A DNA stretch of 45,056 nucleotides from Hutsoniella sourekii ATCC 700629 (GTDB lineage Bacteria; Bacillota; Bacilli; Lactobacillales; Aerococcaceae), in assembly GCF_000518205.1 (NCBI RefSeq), contig NZ_JADD01000020.1, positions 1 to 45,056 on the forward strand. The letters are read 5' to 3'. The notes under the pieces are model-generated. The model saw only the letters and a program-made list of their open reading frames with translations. It was not told where the DNA came from and did no database searches. Of the stretch, positions 30,532 to 37,517 are shown piece by piece; the first letter of the stretch is position 1, and every line of letters starts with the position of its first letter. The translations under genes and the position numbers were made by a program.

Positions 30532-31075
30532 TCTGACGAAGATTGAGTTTTTTTCCTGGATCTTAGATCACTTTCCACCTTTGCAACTTCCAACGGCTTA
30601 TTTTTTTCAATTTCTCATGAAAGAACCTAAGCTTTTGGATCAAATAATTATCACAGAACACGTTCAACAATCACCAAGAGGTATTAGAATTGATTTAATG
30701 TGTCAAGATCCTGAGAATGTTGTTTATTTCAAAAATCAGATTGAATGGCAAAGCCTGGATCAGGTCTTTCATGATTTGCGGCTAAGTCGGAATAAACCCA
30801 ACGACTTTTATTGCTTGGAATTAGTTTTGCCTGATTATTATTATTGGGCGAATTACTACCAAGTATTTGAAGAAAATCCCTATCTAATCTCCCCAACCTT
30901 GAGCGATGACTTGGACCAAAGTTTAAAACTTGTGAGTTTGATAGGTAGGATGAATCAACTGACTCAGGCCTTGAATCAAGCCCTTGATGGGGGACATCCT
31001 GAAGTAAGTGCCGAATACTTGCAACAAATCAATCGTTTGAAAGAGGAATATCATGTGGCTAGATTTAAAAAATAA
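30515..31075 (+). CDS. ypiB: YpiB/UPF0302 family protein
   Basis: A 186-aa protein matching the YpiB family: the N-terminal half has FFSWILDHF, YFFQFLMKEPKLLDQI and the mid motif VFHDLRLSRNK, followed by FEENPYL; a C-terminal helix (QLTQALNQALDGGHPEVSAE) resembles the IDEAL region of the family. Function is poorly known; in Bacillus it is linked to quality control of cell-wall or phospholipid enzymes only by report. ATG 30515 is chosen because GAAGGGG lies 7 nt upstream. It overlaps ypiA before it and cca after it. Confidence 0.75.
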   Translation: MTMVVNLTKIEFFSWILDHFPPLQLPTAYFFQFLMKEPKLLDQIIITEHVQQSPRGIRIDLMCQDPENVVYFKNQIEWQSLDQVFHDLRLSRNKPNDFYCLELVLPDYYYWANYYQVFEENPYLISPTLSDDLDQSLKLVSLIGRMNQLTQALNQALDGGHPEVSAEYLQQINRLKEEYHVARFKK

Positions 31076-32276
31076 ATATTTTACACAAGCGATGCCCGTT
31101 ATGTCAGAACTAGTTGATAAGGGTTTTGAAGCCTATTTTGTGGGGGGCTGTGTTAGGGACCTGCTTCTAGATGATCCGATTCACGATATCGATATAGCCA
31201 CTAGTGCTAGGCCTGAAGAGATTCAAGCAATCTTTCCTTCGACGATTGATGTAGGAGCCGAACATGGAACTATCATTGTTCTCTATCAACAGCAACCTTA
31301 TGAAATTACAACCTTTAGAACGGAAGGAAAATATTCTGACTATCGTCGTCCGGATTCCGTTGAATTTGTCCGAGATTTAAAAGAAGATACCTTGAGAAGA
31401 GACTTCACGATTAATGCCATGGCTTGTGATCTTGATGGAAAGCTATATGATTATCATGGAGGCTTTGCTGATCTTGAGTTGGGTTTGATTCGGGCGGTAG
31501 GAGATCCGAGTGCACGATTTCAAGAAGATGCCCTTAGAATGATGCGTGCCGTTCGTTTTGCTAGTAAATTAGGTTTTAAAATTGAGCGAGCCACTTTTTC
31601 AGCTATTCAATCGCTGTCTGAATTGATAACTAAGATCGCCATAGAAAGAATCCGTATCGAAATGGATAAGTTTCTAATTGGTGATTATTTCTTTAAAACT
31701 TATTTATCCCTTCAAGAAACAGGTTTAATAGTTTATTTACCTGGGTTTTCAAATCCAGTAGCTGGGCAAGCCTTGGCTGATTTAGCCCAAGATTTAAAGC
31801 CTATGATTGAAAACGACATGGATCGTCCTTTACCTTTAGTTTGGGCTTTATTATTAGGGCACTTAGGCCTAGATACAGGCGCCTGTAAAAAAATGTTGCG
31901 TGCATGGACCCACAGTAATCAGATGATCAGTGAAACACTGGAAATCATTGAGTTTTTACAAGAAGAATCAAGAGGTCAACTGAATGCTTGGTCGATTTAT
32001 CAATACTCAGATTTAACAGTTGAACGTTGTCTGTCCTACTTGCAAGTCCATGGAGTGGATACCCATGATTATTTAACTATCTGGCAAAATCTTCCAATTA
32101 AGAATCGCCAGGAGATTGTCATGGATGGCCGTTGCTTAATGGCATACTTACAAATGGACCAAGGAGGCCCTATTATCGGTCGTTTGCTCCAGCAAGTGGA
32201 AAAAGCAATCGTCCAAGGAGAGTTAATGAATCAGGAAGAGGCTATTAAAGAATTTATTGATCAATACCAAGACTAG
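31053..32276 (+). CDS. cca: CCA tRNA nucleotidyltransferase (class II)
   Basis: Adds or repairs the 3'-CCA end of tRNAs; 407 aa, the usual length for the Bacillus-type enzyme. The head domain has YFVGGCVRDLLLDDPIHDIDIAT with catalytic D45 and D47, the FRTEGKYSDYRRPD motif, LKEDTLRRDFTINAMA and EDALRMMRAVRFASKLGF, which read the nucleotide. GAGGA lies before the ATG, inside the end of ypiB (23-nt overlap). dinG follows 14 nt after the stop, with a GGGGAGG site in between. Confidence 0.97.
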   Translation: MWLDLKNKYFTQAMPVMSELVDKGFEAYFVGGCVRDLLLDDPIHDIDIATSARPEEIQAIFPSTIDVGAEHGTIIVLYQQQPYEITTFRTEGKYSDYRRPDSVEFVRDLKEDTLRRDFTINAMACDLDGKLYDYHGGFADLELGLIRAVGDPSARFQEDALRMMRAVRFASKLGFKIERATFSAIQSLSELITKIAIERIRIEMDKFLIGDYFFKTYLSLQETGLIVYLPGFSNPVAGQALADLAQDLKPMIENDMDRPLPLVWALLLGHLGLDTGACKKMLRAWTHSNQMISETLEIIEFLQEESRGQLNAWSIYQYSDLTVERCLSYLQVHGVDTHDYLTIWQNLPIKNRQEIVMDGRCLMAYLQMDQGGPIIGRLLQQVEKAIVQGELMNQEEAIKEFIDQYQD

Positions 32277-32290
32277 GGGAGGTGAAGCAA

Positions 32291-34789
32291 TTGACTGTAA
32301 GTAAGGCTAAAATAGCTGTGGTTGACTTAGAGACCACGGGACCCAACCGAAAAGAAGGGGATCAGATCATCCAGATCGCTGCGGTAATTTATTGTGAGGG
32401 TCAAATCATTGAGCAAGTCAGTCAGTTAGTGAATCCCTTAATGGATCTGCCCTTTGAAATTAGCCAGTTAACAGGTATTAATGATGATGATTTGTTGGAA
32501 GCTCCAACATGGGATCAAATAGTTGATGAATGGTGGCTAAAATTGCAGGATTGCATCCTAGTTGCTCATAATATTAATTTTGATTACAAATTTTTACAGC
32601 AGTTTTTCAAGGAGTATGGCTATGATTATCAACCGCTTAGAATCGATACCGTTGTTCTAAGTCAAATTTTGTTGCCTCAAAGTAATGGCTTTAGTTTATC
32701 AAGTTTAAGTCGGCATCTAGCTGTCGCTTTTGAGGATGCTCATGATGCCTTATCGGATGCTAAATTTACGACCTATTTATTGGCGAATTTAGCCCAGCAA
32801 GTCGTTGAAATGGAAGCTAGTGTTAGAGACCAGTTGCTTTTAGTAATGAAACACTTAAATGATGATGAAACTTATTTTATGAGTCATGCCACTGATTTTG
32901 TATTAGGAGATCCTCAGTCCTTAATTGATGGGCAAGGACAACCGATCAGTACCAGACAATTAAAAGATGAAACGCACTTGAGTCTTCAATTAGCCAAGTG
33001 GATGGAAGAACAAGCTCGGCCACACTCCTCTATTCTTTTTGAAGACCCTGATCGACCGATCTCGCCTACAATAATGAAGGCCTACGCTTATCTGCAAAGT
33101 CAAAGAGATCCCGTTCTCTTATCCATTCCTGATCAAGAAGAATTATCTACTTGGCTGAAAAAATTTCAAGCAATGGATCCATCCTTAAAGTTTGGGCTTT
33201 TACTACCTTCTTCAAGCTTTATCCATCTTGAAGCGTTTGAATCAGTTTTAGCTTTGGTTGGTAAAGAATCCTTTAACCAATTGCAACTTATTCAATTGGC
33301 CGCTTGTTATTATTGGTTGAGTCAGTCAAATACAGGAAACTATCAAGAAATTCACTCTCATCTCCATTGTCATTCTTTAATTGATAAGTACGCAAAATCT
33401 ATTAAGGAAAATCAGCCCCACTATTTTTATCTAAAAAATAAAAAGAAGTGTCTGCTTGCTAACTTCTGCTTGGTAGACCATACTTATCTCCCTTATAGTC
33501 TACAAGTGATGCCAGTTGAATTCAGCCAGCAGCGCCGTTTGTTAGTTTATGATACTCATTCGCTCGCTCAAGAACTTCGCTATTATTATTCAAGGAAATT
33601 AAACTTGTCGCATTTGCTACTTCAGCTACGTCGTATTAACGAAGGAAGTTTAGCTGTGCTTCAAGGAGAACGGATAAGAAATCTACAAGAGATCATCAAG
33701 AAATGCCTTCAAGATTTGTCTCATTTCTTAAAGGCGCAGATTCAACAAAACAAACAATCTTCTTTGCAAGTAATCGAGAAATACTTATCATTCAATCAAC
33801 CGATCTGGGATCAGTTACAGGCTAATCTTCAATTAGCCTGTCAGGACCTAGAGCGTTTAATTCTTGAAATTAGAGAGGCTAGTGAAGAATCCTTAGCTGA
33901 TCTCAATAAGTTTTTGCTTGACCTGAAGTCAATCGCGACTTGTCAAAGAGTTGGTTGGTATCTATCAGCGCGCGCAAGTTTCTCTCATGGTCAGTTTTTT
34001 GATTTAAATTTAATTTTGACACCCCTTGTTATTAACAAAGATTACCTAGCTTTTATGGATTCTTTTAAACAGGTGTCCTTGATTAGCTTGGGAAATTATA
34101 GCAATGATCAATTGATGACCAACTATACAGGTATACAAGGGCAAAAGCTCGTCTACCTAACGCTTCCCAAACTTAATCAACAGCGGACCAAACTAAGGCT
34201 TGAAATTCCTCTTGAATTTATCAATGAACAAACTGAGGATCTGCAGTTGACAGCCCAACTGCTACTTGACCACATTAAATTGAACGACCTCCAGTCGCGC
34301 TTAGCAATTGTTGCTAGCAATCAAGAACAGCTCCACTATCTTTATCAAGTTCTGGGAGAGGATTTAGATATAATCAATCGTTATCACTTGTTGGCATGTG
34401 GAGTGACAGGTAATGCTAGCAGAATTAAGAGACGTTTACTTGAAACAGATACTTGGATTTTACTAGGGAATCGTCGCCAAATTCAATCTTTATCAGCAGA
34501 TATGGGGGCTATCGATATTTCTGTCTACATTCAACGGCTTCCCTTCCAATCATTTGACCATGTACAGTTTCAAGCAATCAAAGATCAAGTTAATCTAGAT
34601 GATTCGGGAATTTTTGAGCAATTTGTCTACCCGAGGATGGTCCAAACGCTTAAAGAATTACTGGTGACTTTAAATGCTTATCATTTTGTCAGTCCAATAT
34701 TTTTGATGGATGCTAGAGTATTTACTAAGAATTATAGTCTTCAGTTAAGACAAGATTTACAAGCCATTTGTGAGATTGAAAGTAGCTAG
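32291..34789 (+). CDS. dinG: DinG-family exonuclease with degenerate helicase part
   Basis: 832 aa from TTG 32291, chosen because GGGGAGG (32276-32282) gives good spacing; GTG 32282 would fall inside that site. The N-terminal DEDDh exonuclease (1-170) is intact: AVVDLETTG (D12, E14), AHNINFDYKF (D98), HDALSDAK (H151, D156). The rest follows the DinG frame but has lost the helicase signatures. The Walker A place (about 246-262) reads SSILFEDPDRPISPTI with no GTGKT, the DEAH place reads VYDTHSL, and the motif-VI region (about 782-800) lacks QxxGRxxR although RLPFQSFDH and MDARVFTKNY on either side survive. No iron-sulfur cysteine set is seen. It is probably a 3'-5' exonuclease only. Its place between cca and ypmB fits the Bacillus order. 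Confidence 0.88.
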   Translation: MTVSKAKIAVVDLETTGPNRKEGDQIIQIAAVIYCEGQIIEQVSQLVNPLMDLPFEISQLTGINDDDLLEAPTWDQIVDEWWLKLQDCILVAHNINFDYKFLQQFFKEYGYDYQPLRIDTVVLSQILLPQSNGFSLSSLSRHLAVAFEDAHDALSDAKFTTYLLANLAQQVVEMEASVRDQLLLVMKHLNDDETYFMSHATDFVLGDPQSLIDGQGQPISTRQLKDETHLSLQLAKWMEEQARPHSSILFEDPDRPISPTIMKAYAYLQSQRDPVLLSIPDQEELSTWLKKFQAMDPSLKFGLLLPSSSFIHLEAFESVLALVGKESFNQLQLIQLAACYYWLSQSNTGNYQEIHSHLHCHSLIDKYAKSIKENQPHYFYLKNKKKCLLANFCLVDHTYLPYSLQVMPVEFSQQRRLLVYDTHSLAQELRYYYSRKLNLSHLLLQLRRINEGSLAVLQGERIRNLQEIIKKCLQDLSHFLKAQIQQNKQSSLQVIEKYLSFNQPIWDQLQANLQLACQDLERLILEIREASEESLADLNKFLLDLKSIATCQRVGWYLSARASFSHGQFFDLNLILTPLVINKDYLAFMDSFKQVSLISLGNYSNDQLMTNYTGIQGQKLVYLTLPKLNQQRTKLRLEIPLEFINEQTEDLQLTAQLLLDHIKLNDLQSRLAIVASNQEQLHYLYQVLGEDLDIINRYHLLACGVTGNASRIKRRLLETDTWILLGNRRQIQSLSADMGAIDISVYIQRLPFQSFDHVQFQAIKDQVNLDDSGIFEQFVYPRMVQTLKELLVTLNAYHFVSPIFLMDARVFTKNYSLQLRQDLQAICEIESS

Positions 34790-34853: not shown

Positions 34854-35330
34854 TTGAGCCGTAGAACAGTTACGATTTTAACTATTATTCTTTTGATTGT
34901 ACTAGCAACTGGTTTGTGGTTGTTTTCTGAAAGTCAAGAGAGTATCGAACAAGCTGAAAAAGAAACAATCGAACTAGTCAATTACGACTATCCGATTGAT
35001 ATTGTAAATGATTTTTATTGGTTTACTCTTGATGATTCATATTTTAGTTTAGATTTTGTTGATCAAGAAGGCCAAAGACGCTATGCTATTGTTGCTCAAG
35101 ATGGCGGTGACGTAGATTATTATACTGATCAAGACTTAATTTCTGAAGATGATGCCAAGTCTTTAGCTGCTAATTATAATGAAGTGGCCTCTTTTATGAA
35201 TACGCGCTTGGGGATGGTTGAAGATGTCCCCGTTTGGGAGGTAGCCTTTAAAGGCAAGGATCAGCACTTGAATTATTACTATATCAATGCTAAATCAGGT
35301 GAGTGGCTTCAAACAATCGGAAACTTATAA
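34854..35330 (+). CDS. ypmB: YpmB-like membrane-anchored protein (DUF5590)
   Basis: A 158-aa protein with one N-terminal membrane helix (VTILTIILLIVLATGLWLF, about 5-23) and an acidic extracytoplasmic part with two PepSY-like halves (about 45-85 and 105-155, ending VWEVAFKGKDQHLNYYYINAKSGEWL). Starts at TTG 34854 after GAGGGAAG. The dinG-ypmB-dnaD order is as in Bacillus. Function is unknown. A hairpin terminator follows. Confidence 0.8.
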   Translation: MSRRTVTILTIILLIVLATGLWLFSESQESIEQAEKETIELVNYDYPIDIVNDFYWFTLDDSYFSLDFVDQEGQRRYAIVAQDGGDVDYYTDQDLISEDDAKSLAANYNEVASFMNTRLGMVEDVPVWEVAFKGKDQHLNYYYINAKSGEWLQTIGNL

Positions 35331-36251: not shown

Positions 36252-37517
36252 ATGAAATTCAAAAATAAATTAATGTTGGGAGCTTCTTTCTTAGGACTCT
36301 TAGCACCAAATGCTTTGGTACAAGCTCAAGAGACGGAAGCTATTCAAGACGATAGTCAATGGCAAGCTCGAAATGTTAACGATGTTGTCAGTGAAATTAT
36401 TCGTGATAACAATGGAAACTTAACTTATACTATTCAAGCAGGGGATACTTTATCAGTGATTGCTGAAGCTTTCTCTAGCGAACTTGAAATTTTTCAGGCT
36501 ATGGATAGACAAGTGGGCGCACAATTGATGCAAACAGGTAGCCAAATAACAGCTCATCAAGATGTCAACGACTTGACCTATGCCTTTACTGTTGAAACGG
36601 TAGCAGGAGACTCTTTCTCATTTGATACGCTAGGCAATCATCAAGCCAATCAAGTAAGTAGTGAGACCGTTCTTGCCCCCGTTCAAGAGTGGGTTGAAAC
36701 AGAATCAGAGCCAACAGTTTCCCAAGTAAATGTTTCTGATTCAGCTAACCAGTCAAAAACATTAGTTGAAGAGGTTCCAGAATGGACCGCAAACGAGCCT
36801 AGTCAACCAGCTATTGGCGGTAATGAACAAGTTGTCACTACAGATGTTGCGCCTGCCAACCAGCTAGTTACTGATTCGGCCGTATCGACTGATCAAGCAA
36901 GCTTTTTGGGTGCAGAGACAGAAGCTGACTTAGCTGGGGAAGTGACTCCGGTTAGTGAAGAATTACCAGTTAGCCAGTCTGGAGAATTGAATCCTGCTGG
37001 AGAGTCTACTCCAAGTGAAGAAAGTCACTTAGAGACAAATAATCCAGTTGAATTGGAAGTGACGAACCCAGAAGTTATCACTAGCTCTGAAGCTGAAGTG
37101 GAGACTGCTCCGGCAGAATCGACCGTTGAATCAGTATCAGAAGAAGTAGTAGCTACTCCGGCTGAAGCTATTGACCCTTATGCTAATCCAGAGAATGCTG
37201 GCCTTACTGCAGATGCAGCAGCTTACAAGGAGAAGGTAGGATCTATGTACGGCGTGGAGGATTATAGTCTATACCGTGCGGGTGATCCTGGTGATCATGG
37301 GCAAGGTAAAGCAGTAGATTTTATGGTCTATGATGATGTTGCAAAAGGTAATGCTATTGCGAATTACTCGATTGAAAATATGGCTGCTAATAATATTAGC
37401 TATGTCATTTGGCAACAGCAAATCTACGGAGACTGGAACCGTCAATGGACGCCTATGGAAGACCGTGGTTCTGTAACAGCTAATCATTATGACCATGTTC
37501 ATGTATCTTTTAACTAA
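36252..37517 (+). CDS. secreted LysM protein with LAS-metallopeptidase-like C-terminus
   Basis: A 421-aa exported protein: signal peptide 1-25 (KNKLMLGASFLGLLAPNALVQA), a LysM domain at about 55-95 (YTIQAGDTLSVIAEAF), a long acidic Ser/Glu/Pro linker (about 130-300), and a C-terminal domain (about 310-421) of the ARB_07466-like type. That domain keeps H349-x6-D356 (HGQGKAVD) and H415-V-H417, the spacing of ligands in LAS metallopeptidases, so a zinc-dependent cell-wall hydrolase is plausible; this is inference. LysM would hold it on peptidoglycan. It is monocistronic: its own promoter with a WalR-like box upstream and a terminator after. Confidence 0.8.
   Translation: MKFKNKLMLGASFLGLLAPNALVQAQETEAIQDDSQWQARNVNDVVSEIIRDNNGNLTYTIQAGDTLSVIAEAFSSELEIFQAMDRQVGAQLMQTGSQITAHQDVNDLTYAFTVETVAGDSFSFDTLGNHQANQVSSETVLAPVQEWVETESEPTVSQVNVSDSANQSKTLVEEVPEWTANEPSQPAIGGNEQVVTTDVAPANQLVTDSAVSTDQASFLGAETEADLAGEVTPVSEELPVSQSGELNPAGESTPSEESHLETNNPVELEVTNPEVITSSEAEVETAPAESTVESVSEEVVATPAEAIDPYANPENAGLTADAAAYKEKVGSMYGVEDYSLYRAGDPGDHGQGKAVDFMVYDDVAKGNAIANYSIENMAANNISYVIWQQQIYGDWNRQWTPMEDRGSVTANHYDHVHVSFN

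Follow-up and report, generated by a model that had tools for sequence, protein, structure and literature searches.

A DinG orthologue with an intact exonuclease centre, a lost ATP site and retained strand-contact residues in Hutsoniella sourekii and its family

Results

The dinG gene and its locus

The window analysed here is a stretch of 45,056 nucleotides from Hutsoniella sourekii ATCC 700629 (GCF_000518205.1, contig NZ_JADD01000020.1, positions 1 to 45,056 of the forward strand; Lactobacillales, Aerococcaceae), and the subject is its dinG gene, whose product has a complete 3'-5' exonuclease centre and a helicase part that has lost the ATP site. The gene is an uninterrupted open reading frame (ORF) of 835 amino acids on the + strand, running from GTG 32282 to 34789. 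A TTG at 32291, giving 832 codons, is the likelier start because it is better spaced after AGGGGAGG (32275-32282), which GTG 32282 overlaps; residue numbers are counted from GTG 32282 unless stated otherwise.

By Pfam domains the locus reads der - HU - TPR protein - UPF0302 protein - cca - dinG - TseB/PepSY protein - dnaD, where der and cca are presumed names based on the domain matches. The cca gene (tRNA nucleotidyltransferase; 31053..32276, +) lies directly upstream of dinG and a PepSY/TseB-like protein (34854..35330, +) lies downstream, and both occupy the same place at 22/22 loci of alignment A1, which holds 22 of the 29 proteins of clade A (see below) at 23-31% identity to the window DinG. 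This conserved order, together with homology over the whole length, identifies the gene as an orthologue of Bacillota DinG. A horizontal swap of dinG is disfavoured, as the cca-dinG order is unbroken in A1 and clades A, B and C each fall on one side of a branch in an exonuclease-domain tree. The genome (2.07 Mb, 99.6% complete) encodes a single DinG and gave no match to PF13307, the DinG/XPD helicase C domain, in a search that was positive in 10 of 14 control genomes; an intact paralogue elsewhere in the genome was therefore rejected. Against plasmids, tblastn matched 247 records; none of these covered more than 80% of the query, and in the 10 shown the match was confined to the N-terminal part. 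A contig scan returned one 42-residue match, in a metagenome-assembled genome of the Bdellovibrionales.

An intact exonuclease centre beside a missing ATP site

The only domain that Pfam detects in the window DinG is the DEDDh 3'-5' exonuclease (residues 13-166; 32318..32779, +; RNase_T, 1.7e-26), with no match to a helicase domain. The catalytic residues D15, E17, D101, H154 and D159 and the helper H96 are all present, as the original prediction had it, and the set is complete in 35/35 orthologues that lack the ATP site (termed ATPase-dead) and in 43/43 motif-bearing ones. Every DinG examined has the six DEDDh and H90 positions intact: first 79 proteins, then six more from the wider-order sample (L136 there being G039 again). 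Motif-bearing means here that the ATP-site motifs are present and says nothing of demonstrated unwinding; 21 of the 43 such sequences come from the window's family and the remaining 22 from families elsewhere in the order.

The window DinG falls under the NCBIfam DinG thresholds: it scores 220 bits on TIGR01407 (dinG_rel; E 5.4e-65, the best stretch being the exonuclease part), where the threshold is 547.7, and 200 bits on NF005981, where it is 789. In orthologue alignments of 59 and then 79 sequences, the P-loop segment is absent from a shortened region of motor domain 1 where Walker A would lie (33020..33075, +), the DEAH of motif II is aligned with a degenerate YDTH (33539..33565, +), and neither motif V nor motif VI is left, ELLVTLNA standing in the place of QxxGRxxR (34646..34684, +). 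When whole sequences were scanned, GxGK[ST] was found in 0/35 dead and 43/43 motif-bearing orthologues; QxxGRxxR occurred in 0/35 and 33/43 respectively. Twenty-eight columns of the helicase part are conserved in at least 95% of the motif-bearing proteins. Among the dead proteins the G, G and K columns of Walker A are retained in 0, 0 and 2 of 35, the D and E of DEAH in 12/35 and 1/35, the G of motif V in 1/35, and the Q, G and R of motif VI in 5/35, 0/35 and 1/35. The loss of Walker A, DEAH and QxxGRxxR, and with them of the nucleotide site, was thus correctly predicted. A conserved but shifted Walker A, which had been named as evidence to the contrary, was looked for by alignment and by motif; none was found in the 35 dead proteins, and A1 has no invariant G or K anywhere in the helicase part. 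A hidden P-loop is rejected on these grounds. Judged by its motifs, the window DinG cannot be an ATP-dependent helicase of the DinG/XPD type.

The helicase part was also said to have kept its length, which holds roughly: the 35 dead proteins span 734-865 amino acids, and the clade-A median is 841 against 920 in motif-bearing relatives of the same family and 933.5 in those of other families.

Retained contacts to the strand

The comparison with Staphylococcus aureus DinG (SaDinG) rests on PDB entry 8zef, taken as SaDinG from its length of 897 and its matching residue numbers. A profile built from A1 aligns to 8zef over its whole length (positions 3-874, E 4.7e-76) and to Escherichia coli DinG (6fwr) across motor domain 2 (E 3.4e-5). 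In the SaDinG crystal structure F804, F823 and Y864 stack on single-stranded DNA (ssDNA) while K801 and R858 bond to it; unwinding is abolished by each of K801A, F804A, F823A, R858A and Y864A, and the dissociation constant for DNA rises more than twofold in K801A, F804A and F823A (PMC12345164). P803 and D856 are neighbours of these contacts.

Matched position by position, R752-L753-P754-F755 of the window DinG ('RLPF'; 34535..34546, +) corresponds to SaDinG K801-F804, F778 (34613..34615, +) to the stacking residue F823, and D810, R812 and Y818 ('DARVFTKNY'; 34709..34735, +) to D856, R858 and Y864. The equivalents of P803, F804, F823, D856, R858 and Y864 are identical in 35/35 dead proteins. 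The window DinG therefore retains the motor-domain-2 ssDNA contacts as R752 (a conservative change), F755, F778, R812 and Y818, referred to below as the grip. The same residues emerge from conservation: outside the exonuclease, the invariant columns of A1 are P641, P752, F753, F776, D808, R810 and Y816 in A1 numbering, the last six being P754, F755, F778, D810, R812 and Y818 from GTG, and in the dead helicase parts taken together only eight columns reach 90% conservation: L753, P754, F755, F778, M786, D810, R812 and Y818. The LPF run and the ssDNA-contact residues of S. aureus DinG account for six of them. A second remnant is a pseudo-iron-sulphur (pseudo-FeS) signature, W345...G352...E356 (33314..33349, +), retained in 31, 30 and 31 of 35 dead orthologues respectively and placed, counting along the alignment, just ahead of the SaDinG channel lysines K385/K389. 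The two sequence landmarks that had been singled out beforehand, RLPF and DARVFTKNY, are indeed kept, and both hold strand-gripping residues; the accompanying statement that all helicase motifs are lost goes too far, since the motor-domain-2 contacts and the W/G/E signature remain.

Distribution in the family and the order

All 76 genomes surveyed from the window's family carry a DinG. Sequences were read from 56 of them, 35 being ATPase-dead and 21 bearing the motifs; the other 20 were called intact from their PF13307 score alone (at least 74 bits, against 36.8 or less for the dead ones). Rows left out of the counts were L002 and L003 (PolC, DnaQ), L025, L026 and L028-L032 (cut copies, refetched whole), L033 and L063; G039 was kept apart from both classes and G040 has no DinG. 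The dead state is thus found in 35/76 genomes and 17/21 genera, the remaining genera being g5, g9, g10 and g13, and the idea of one isolated protein further along a path to nuclease-only DinG gives way to a lineage-wide trait. Two motif-bearing DinGs of genus g9 (L036, L070) have an unusual GVGKS/DECH/SFQEGV set with IFGRMAA as motif VI, and possibly represent an intermediate state of the ATP site.

Across the order, PF13307 is absent from 24/395 sampled genomes, 17 in the window's family and seven elsewhere (G039, G040 and G207, the other four being taken as G251, G317, G377 and G386 from gaps in the list), and its score is weak in G266; a survey of this kind may overlook a dead DinG wherever the genome encodes another PF13307 protein. 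Five of these eight genomes form genus g60 of family f9. Their DinGs (L130-L134) are ATPase-dead: a trace of Walker A survives (APKIGKT or similar), METPxQ stands in place of DEAH and motif VI is absent; they retain the exonuclease residues and the pseudo-FeS WLTQTKTG and have lost the motor-domain-2 grip. The same combination of kept exonuclease residues and lost grip is seen in a degenerate 702-amino-acid DEDDh-DinG fusion protein (ExoDinG) of G039 (L136, family f5). The 759-amino-acid reading from G266 (L135, family f9) is apparently cut short; it keeps the exonuclease residues, and its grip is lost or missing. Among the dead DinGs sampled, then, the grip is retained solely in the window's family, and in this sample the ATP site has been lost in more than one family of the order and the nuclease never. 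In G040 (family f6; 99% complete), which lacks DinG, profile A2 matches only PolC, a 228-amino-acid DnaQ-like protein and, weakly (8.7e-5), an 811-amino-acid ORF.

Number of losses

The loss of the motifs was mapped on trees of PolC (39 rows) and of PolC+RpoB+RpoC (26 rows, leaving out G061), and each gives three changes to the dead state. Clade A comprises 14 genera, the window's included, with support of 100. Clade B (g11+g20) adjoins the motif-bearing g10, with support of 99 and 100 on the two trees, and clade C is g15. In approximately unbiased (AU) tests a single loss was not rejected (p 0.333 for PolC, p 0.126 for the concatenation), nor was a grouping of A with B (p 0.412 and 0.158) or of B with C (p 0.15, concatenation), and constraining A and C together gave a better likelihood than the free tree with both data sets. 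As the tests reject no number smaller than three, we put the losses in the family at one to three, with two as the best reading.

Selection on the dead helicase part

Ratios of non-synonymous to synonymous substitution rates (dN/dS) were taken from within-group pairs of more than 55% identity. The dead helicase part of clade A gave 0.094-0.134 (7/8 pairs, one being saturated), against 0.079-0.126 for the motif-bearing helicase part in the same family (4/7 pairs, the rest saturated); the 4 pairs from other families that yielded a value lay at 0.036-0.204. The exonuclease part of clade A is held more tightly, at 0.022-0.086. Because several pairs on both sides are near synonymous saturation, the least diverged pairs are the safest: these gave 0.120 (L008/L077), 0.096 (L011/L012) and 0.134 (L022/L075) for dead proteins, and 0.092 (L064/L065) and 0.126 (L036/L070) for motif-bearing ones. 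In clade A the dead helicase part is therefore under purifying selection, like that of its closest intact relatives, and decay as a pseudogene is disfavoured.

Discussion

We propose that the window DinG is probably a natural 'pseudohelicase-exonuclease', in which an ATP-independent 3'-5' exonuclease works beside a former motor domain that holds the strand. The nuclease residues read from the sequence are intact, the ATP site is missing and the ssDNA-contact residues are invariant; the trait is lineage-wide and, in clade A, under purifying selection. From this we infer both nuclease activity and binding of the strand by the dead domain. An ExoDinG orthologue that had given up binding and hydrolysis of ATP would trim the ends of single-stranded DNA and/or RNA 3' to 5' with its DEDDh centre, while the former motor domain 2, probably together with the pseudo-FeS domain, would grip the strand upstream of the cutting site, so that the strand would be fed or positioned passively. 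To judge from the DinG proteins of B. subtilis and L. monocytogenes, the substrate may be R-loop RNA, recessed 3' ends or unprocessed ribosomal RNA (rRNA); R-loop RNA and stalled forks have been proposed for the Bacillus enzyme (PMC12525004) and unprocessed rRNA for that of Listeria (PMC12774634).

The feasibility of such a mechanism is supported by DinG proteins of Bacillus and Listeria, which retain their exonuclease when the ATPase is mutated. The Walker A mutant K290A of B. subtilis DinG has no ssDNA-stimulated ATPase, yet it remains active as a 3'-5' exonuclease on ssDNA, to which it binds at about 1.1 nM in the presence of EDTA, and the ATPase is reported neither to stimulate nor to inhibit degradation (PMC12525004). 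The DEAH mutant E465A of L. monocytogenes DinG likewise keeps its exonuclease activity (PMC12774634). The proposal had been framed around S. aureus DinG as a nuclease without helicase activity; that precedent is superseded, since the mBio study of 2025 revises the earlier nuclease-only report and describes a 5'-3' helicase as well as a 3'-5' exonuclease (PMC12345164). In favour of the original prediction, one study found no robust 5'-3' unwinding by B. subtilis DinG, whose motifs are intact (PMC12525004), and weak helicase activity may thus precede the loss of the motifs.

Several observations weigh against the proposed role of the former motor domain. The K801 equivalent, R in the window DinG, is K or R in just 15/29 clade-A proteins, and at the equivalent of K336 in motor domain 1, a position assigned by eye, 17/29 have K or R and the window DinG has a leucine; with both unevenly kept, the grip is weakened on one side. 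At least two further ATPase-dead lineages (g60 in f9 and G039 in f5) have lost the grip too, which shows that it can be dispensable once the ATPase is dead. The retained residues could be conserved for folding and be in part structural, the dN/dS values for dead proteins come from clade A alone, as no other dead clade provided qualifying pairs, and crosslink resistance in S. aureus needs both DinG activities (PMC12345164). A single-sequence AlphaFold prediction gave a predicted local distance difference test (pLDDT) score of 33.5 and no usable model.

The strongest competing explanation, and the role first suggested for the protein, is that the dead helicase part is an inert scaffold, or a folding or solubility partner of the exonuclease, with no part in handling nucleic acid. 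DEDDh exonuclease catalysis requires no helicase domain, and the g60 and G039 proteins persist without the grip. The same persistence, however, makes the absolute retention of the grip in the window's family more telling, as a need for folding alone explains it poorly, and the conserved columns of the dead helicase parts are mostly the LPF run and ssDNA contacts (six of eight). The invariant motor-domain-2 contacts therefore suggest a substrate-binding role, and we consider an inert scaffold unlikely. Another possibility, which we hold to be very improbable, is ongoing decay of the helicase part, which would in the end leave a gene for a short exonuclease standing alone. The median length is down by about 80-90 amino acids, the exonuclease part is the slower-evolving of the two and shorter forms exist elsewhere in the order (702 amino acids in G039; G266, apparently cut short), but dN/dS in the dead part of clade A, at about 0.09-0.13, is like that of motif-bearing relatives and all 35 dead proteins, none below 734 amino acids, have the grip residues. 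That a cryptic or shifted nucleotide site still lets the protein work as a helicase or translocase on ATP is scarcely credible. The motor fold is evidently kept, given the whole-length profile match to 8zef, and clade A has a nearly invariant glycine, G710, in the stretch from motif IV to motif V (27/29), yet this glycine is also common in motif-bearing proteins (28/43), and the Walker A, DEAH and motif VI columns are gone as described above, with no invariant G or K in the helicase part of A1.

Taking the probable pseudohelicase-exonuclease beyond the window, we tentatively suggest, at somewhat less than even chances, that in most genera of the family the dead motor domain is an ATP-independent strand clamp that governs which substrates the nuclease takes and how large its steps are, the helicase having been abandoned more than once in the order and the nuclease never lost in the sample. 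If this is true, the conserved job of Gram-positive DinG would be the trimming of 3' ends and not unwinding. Which of its enzymes matters in Gram-positive bacteria is a live question: the work on S. aureus assigns both to crosslink repair, and that on Listeria and Bacillus stresses the exonuclease. A natural lineage with the nuclease and the grip residues, without the ATP site and under purifying selection like that of intact relatives, sets the two roles apart and opens the question to direct experiment. Genes of this kind should not be annotated as ATP-dependent helicases.

The fusion of a DEDDh exonuclease to a DinG-type helicase is already known from the ExoDinG proteins of Bacillota (S. 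aureus, PDB 8zef/9ii8; B. subtilis; L. monocytogenes), with which the window DinG shares both parts and the motor-domain-2 ssDNA contacts, and from which it differs in lacking Walker A, DEAH, motif V and motif VI and in falling under the NCBIfam DinG cut-offs. A 2025 review of DinG-like proteins describes ExoDinG and pExoDinG and, in the sections covered, no ATPase-dead ExoDinG (PMC11981726); no account of one was found among the literature matches listed, in a search that left subscription journals mostly outside. In the Caulobacter-type pExoDinG, likewise DinG-like, one enzyme of the pair is considered dead (PMC11981726), but as a mirror image, with an incomplete nuclease centre and a kept ATPase site. 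As an analogy, the closest functional parallel lies in the inactivated helicase domains of AddB and RecC, where a helicase fold without translocation motifs beside a nuclease serves as a DNA-reading surface (PMC4824097); in the window DinG the residues of a putative DNA-binding surface are retained in sequence. AddB and RecC have a superfamily 1 fold and another nuclease, act within a multi-subunit motor complex and are sequence-specific (Chi), and no homology is claimed.

Elsewhere in the window, a 421-amino-acid protein encoded at 36252-37517 (+), for which Pfam gives nothing at 1e-3, appears by eye to be a secreted protein whose N-terminal part is LysM-like and whose C-terminal domain reads GDPGDHGQGKAVDFMV...YDHVHVSFN.

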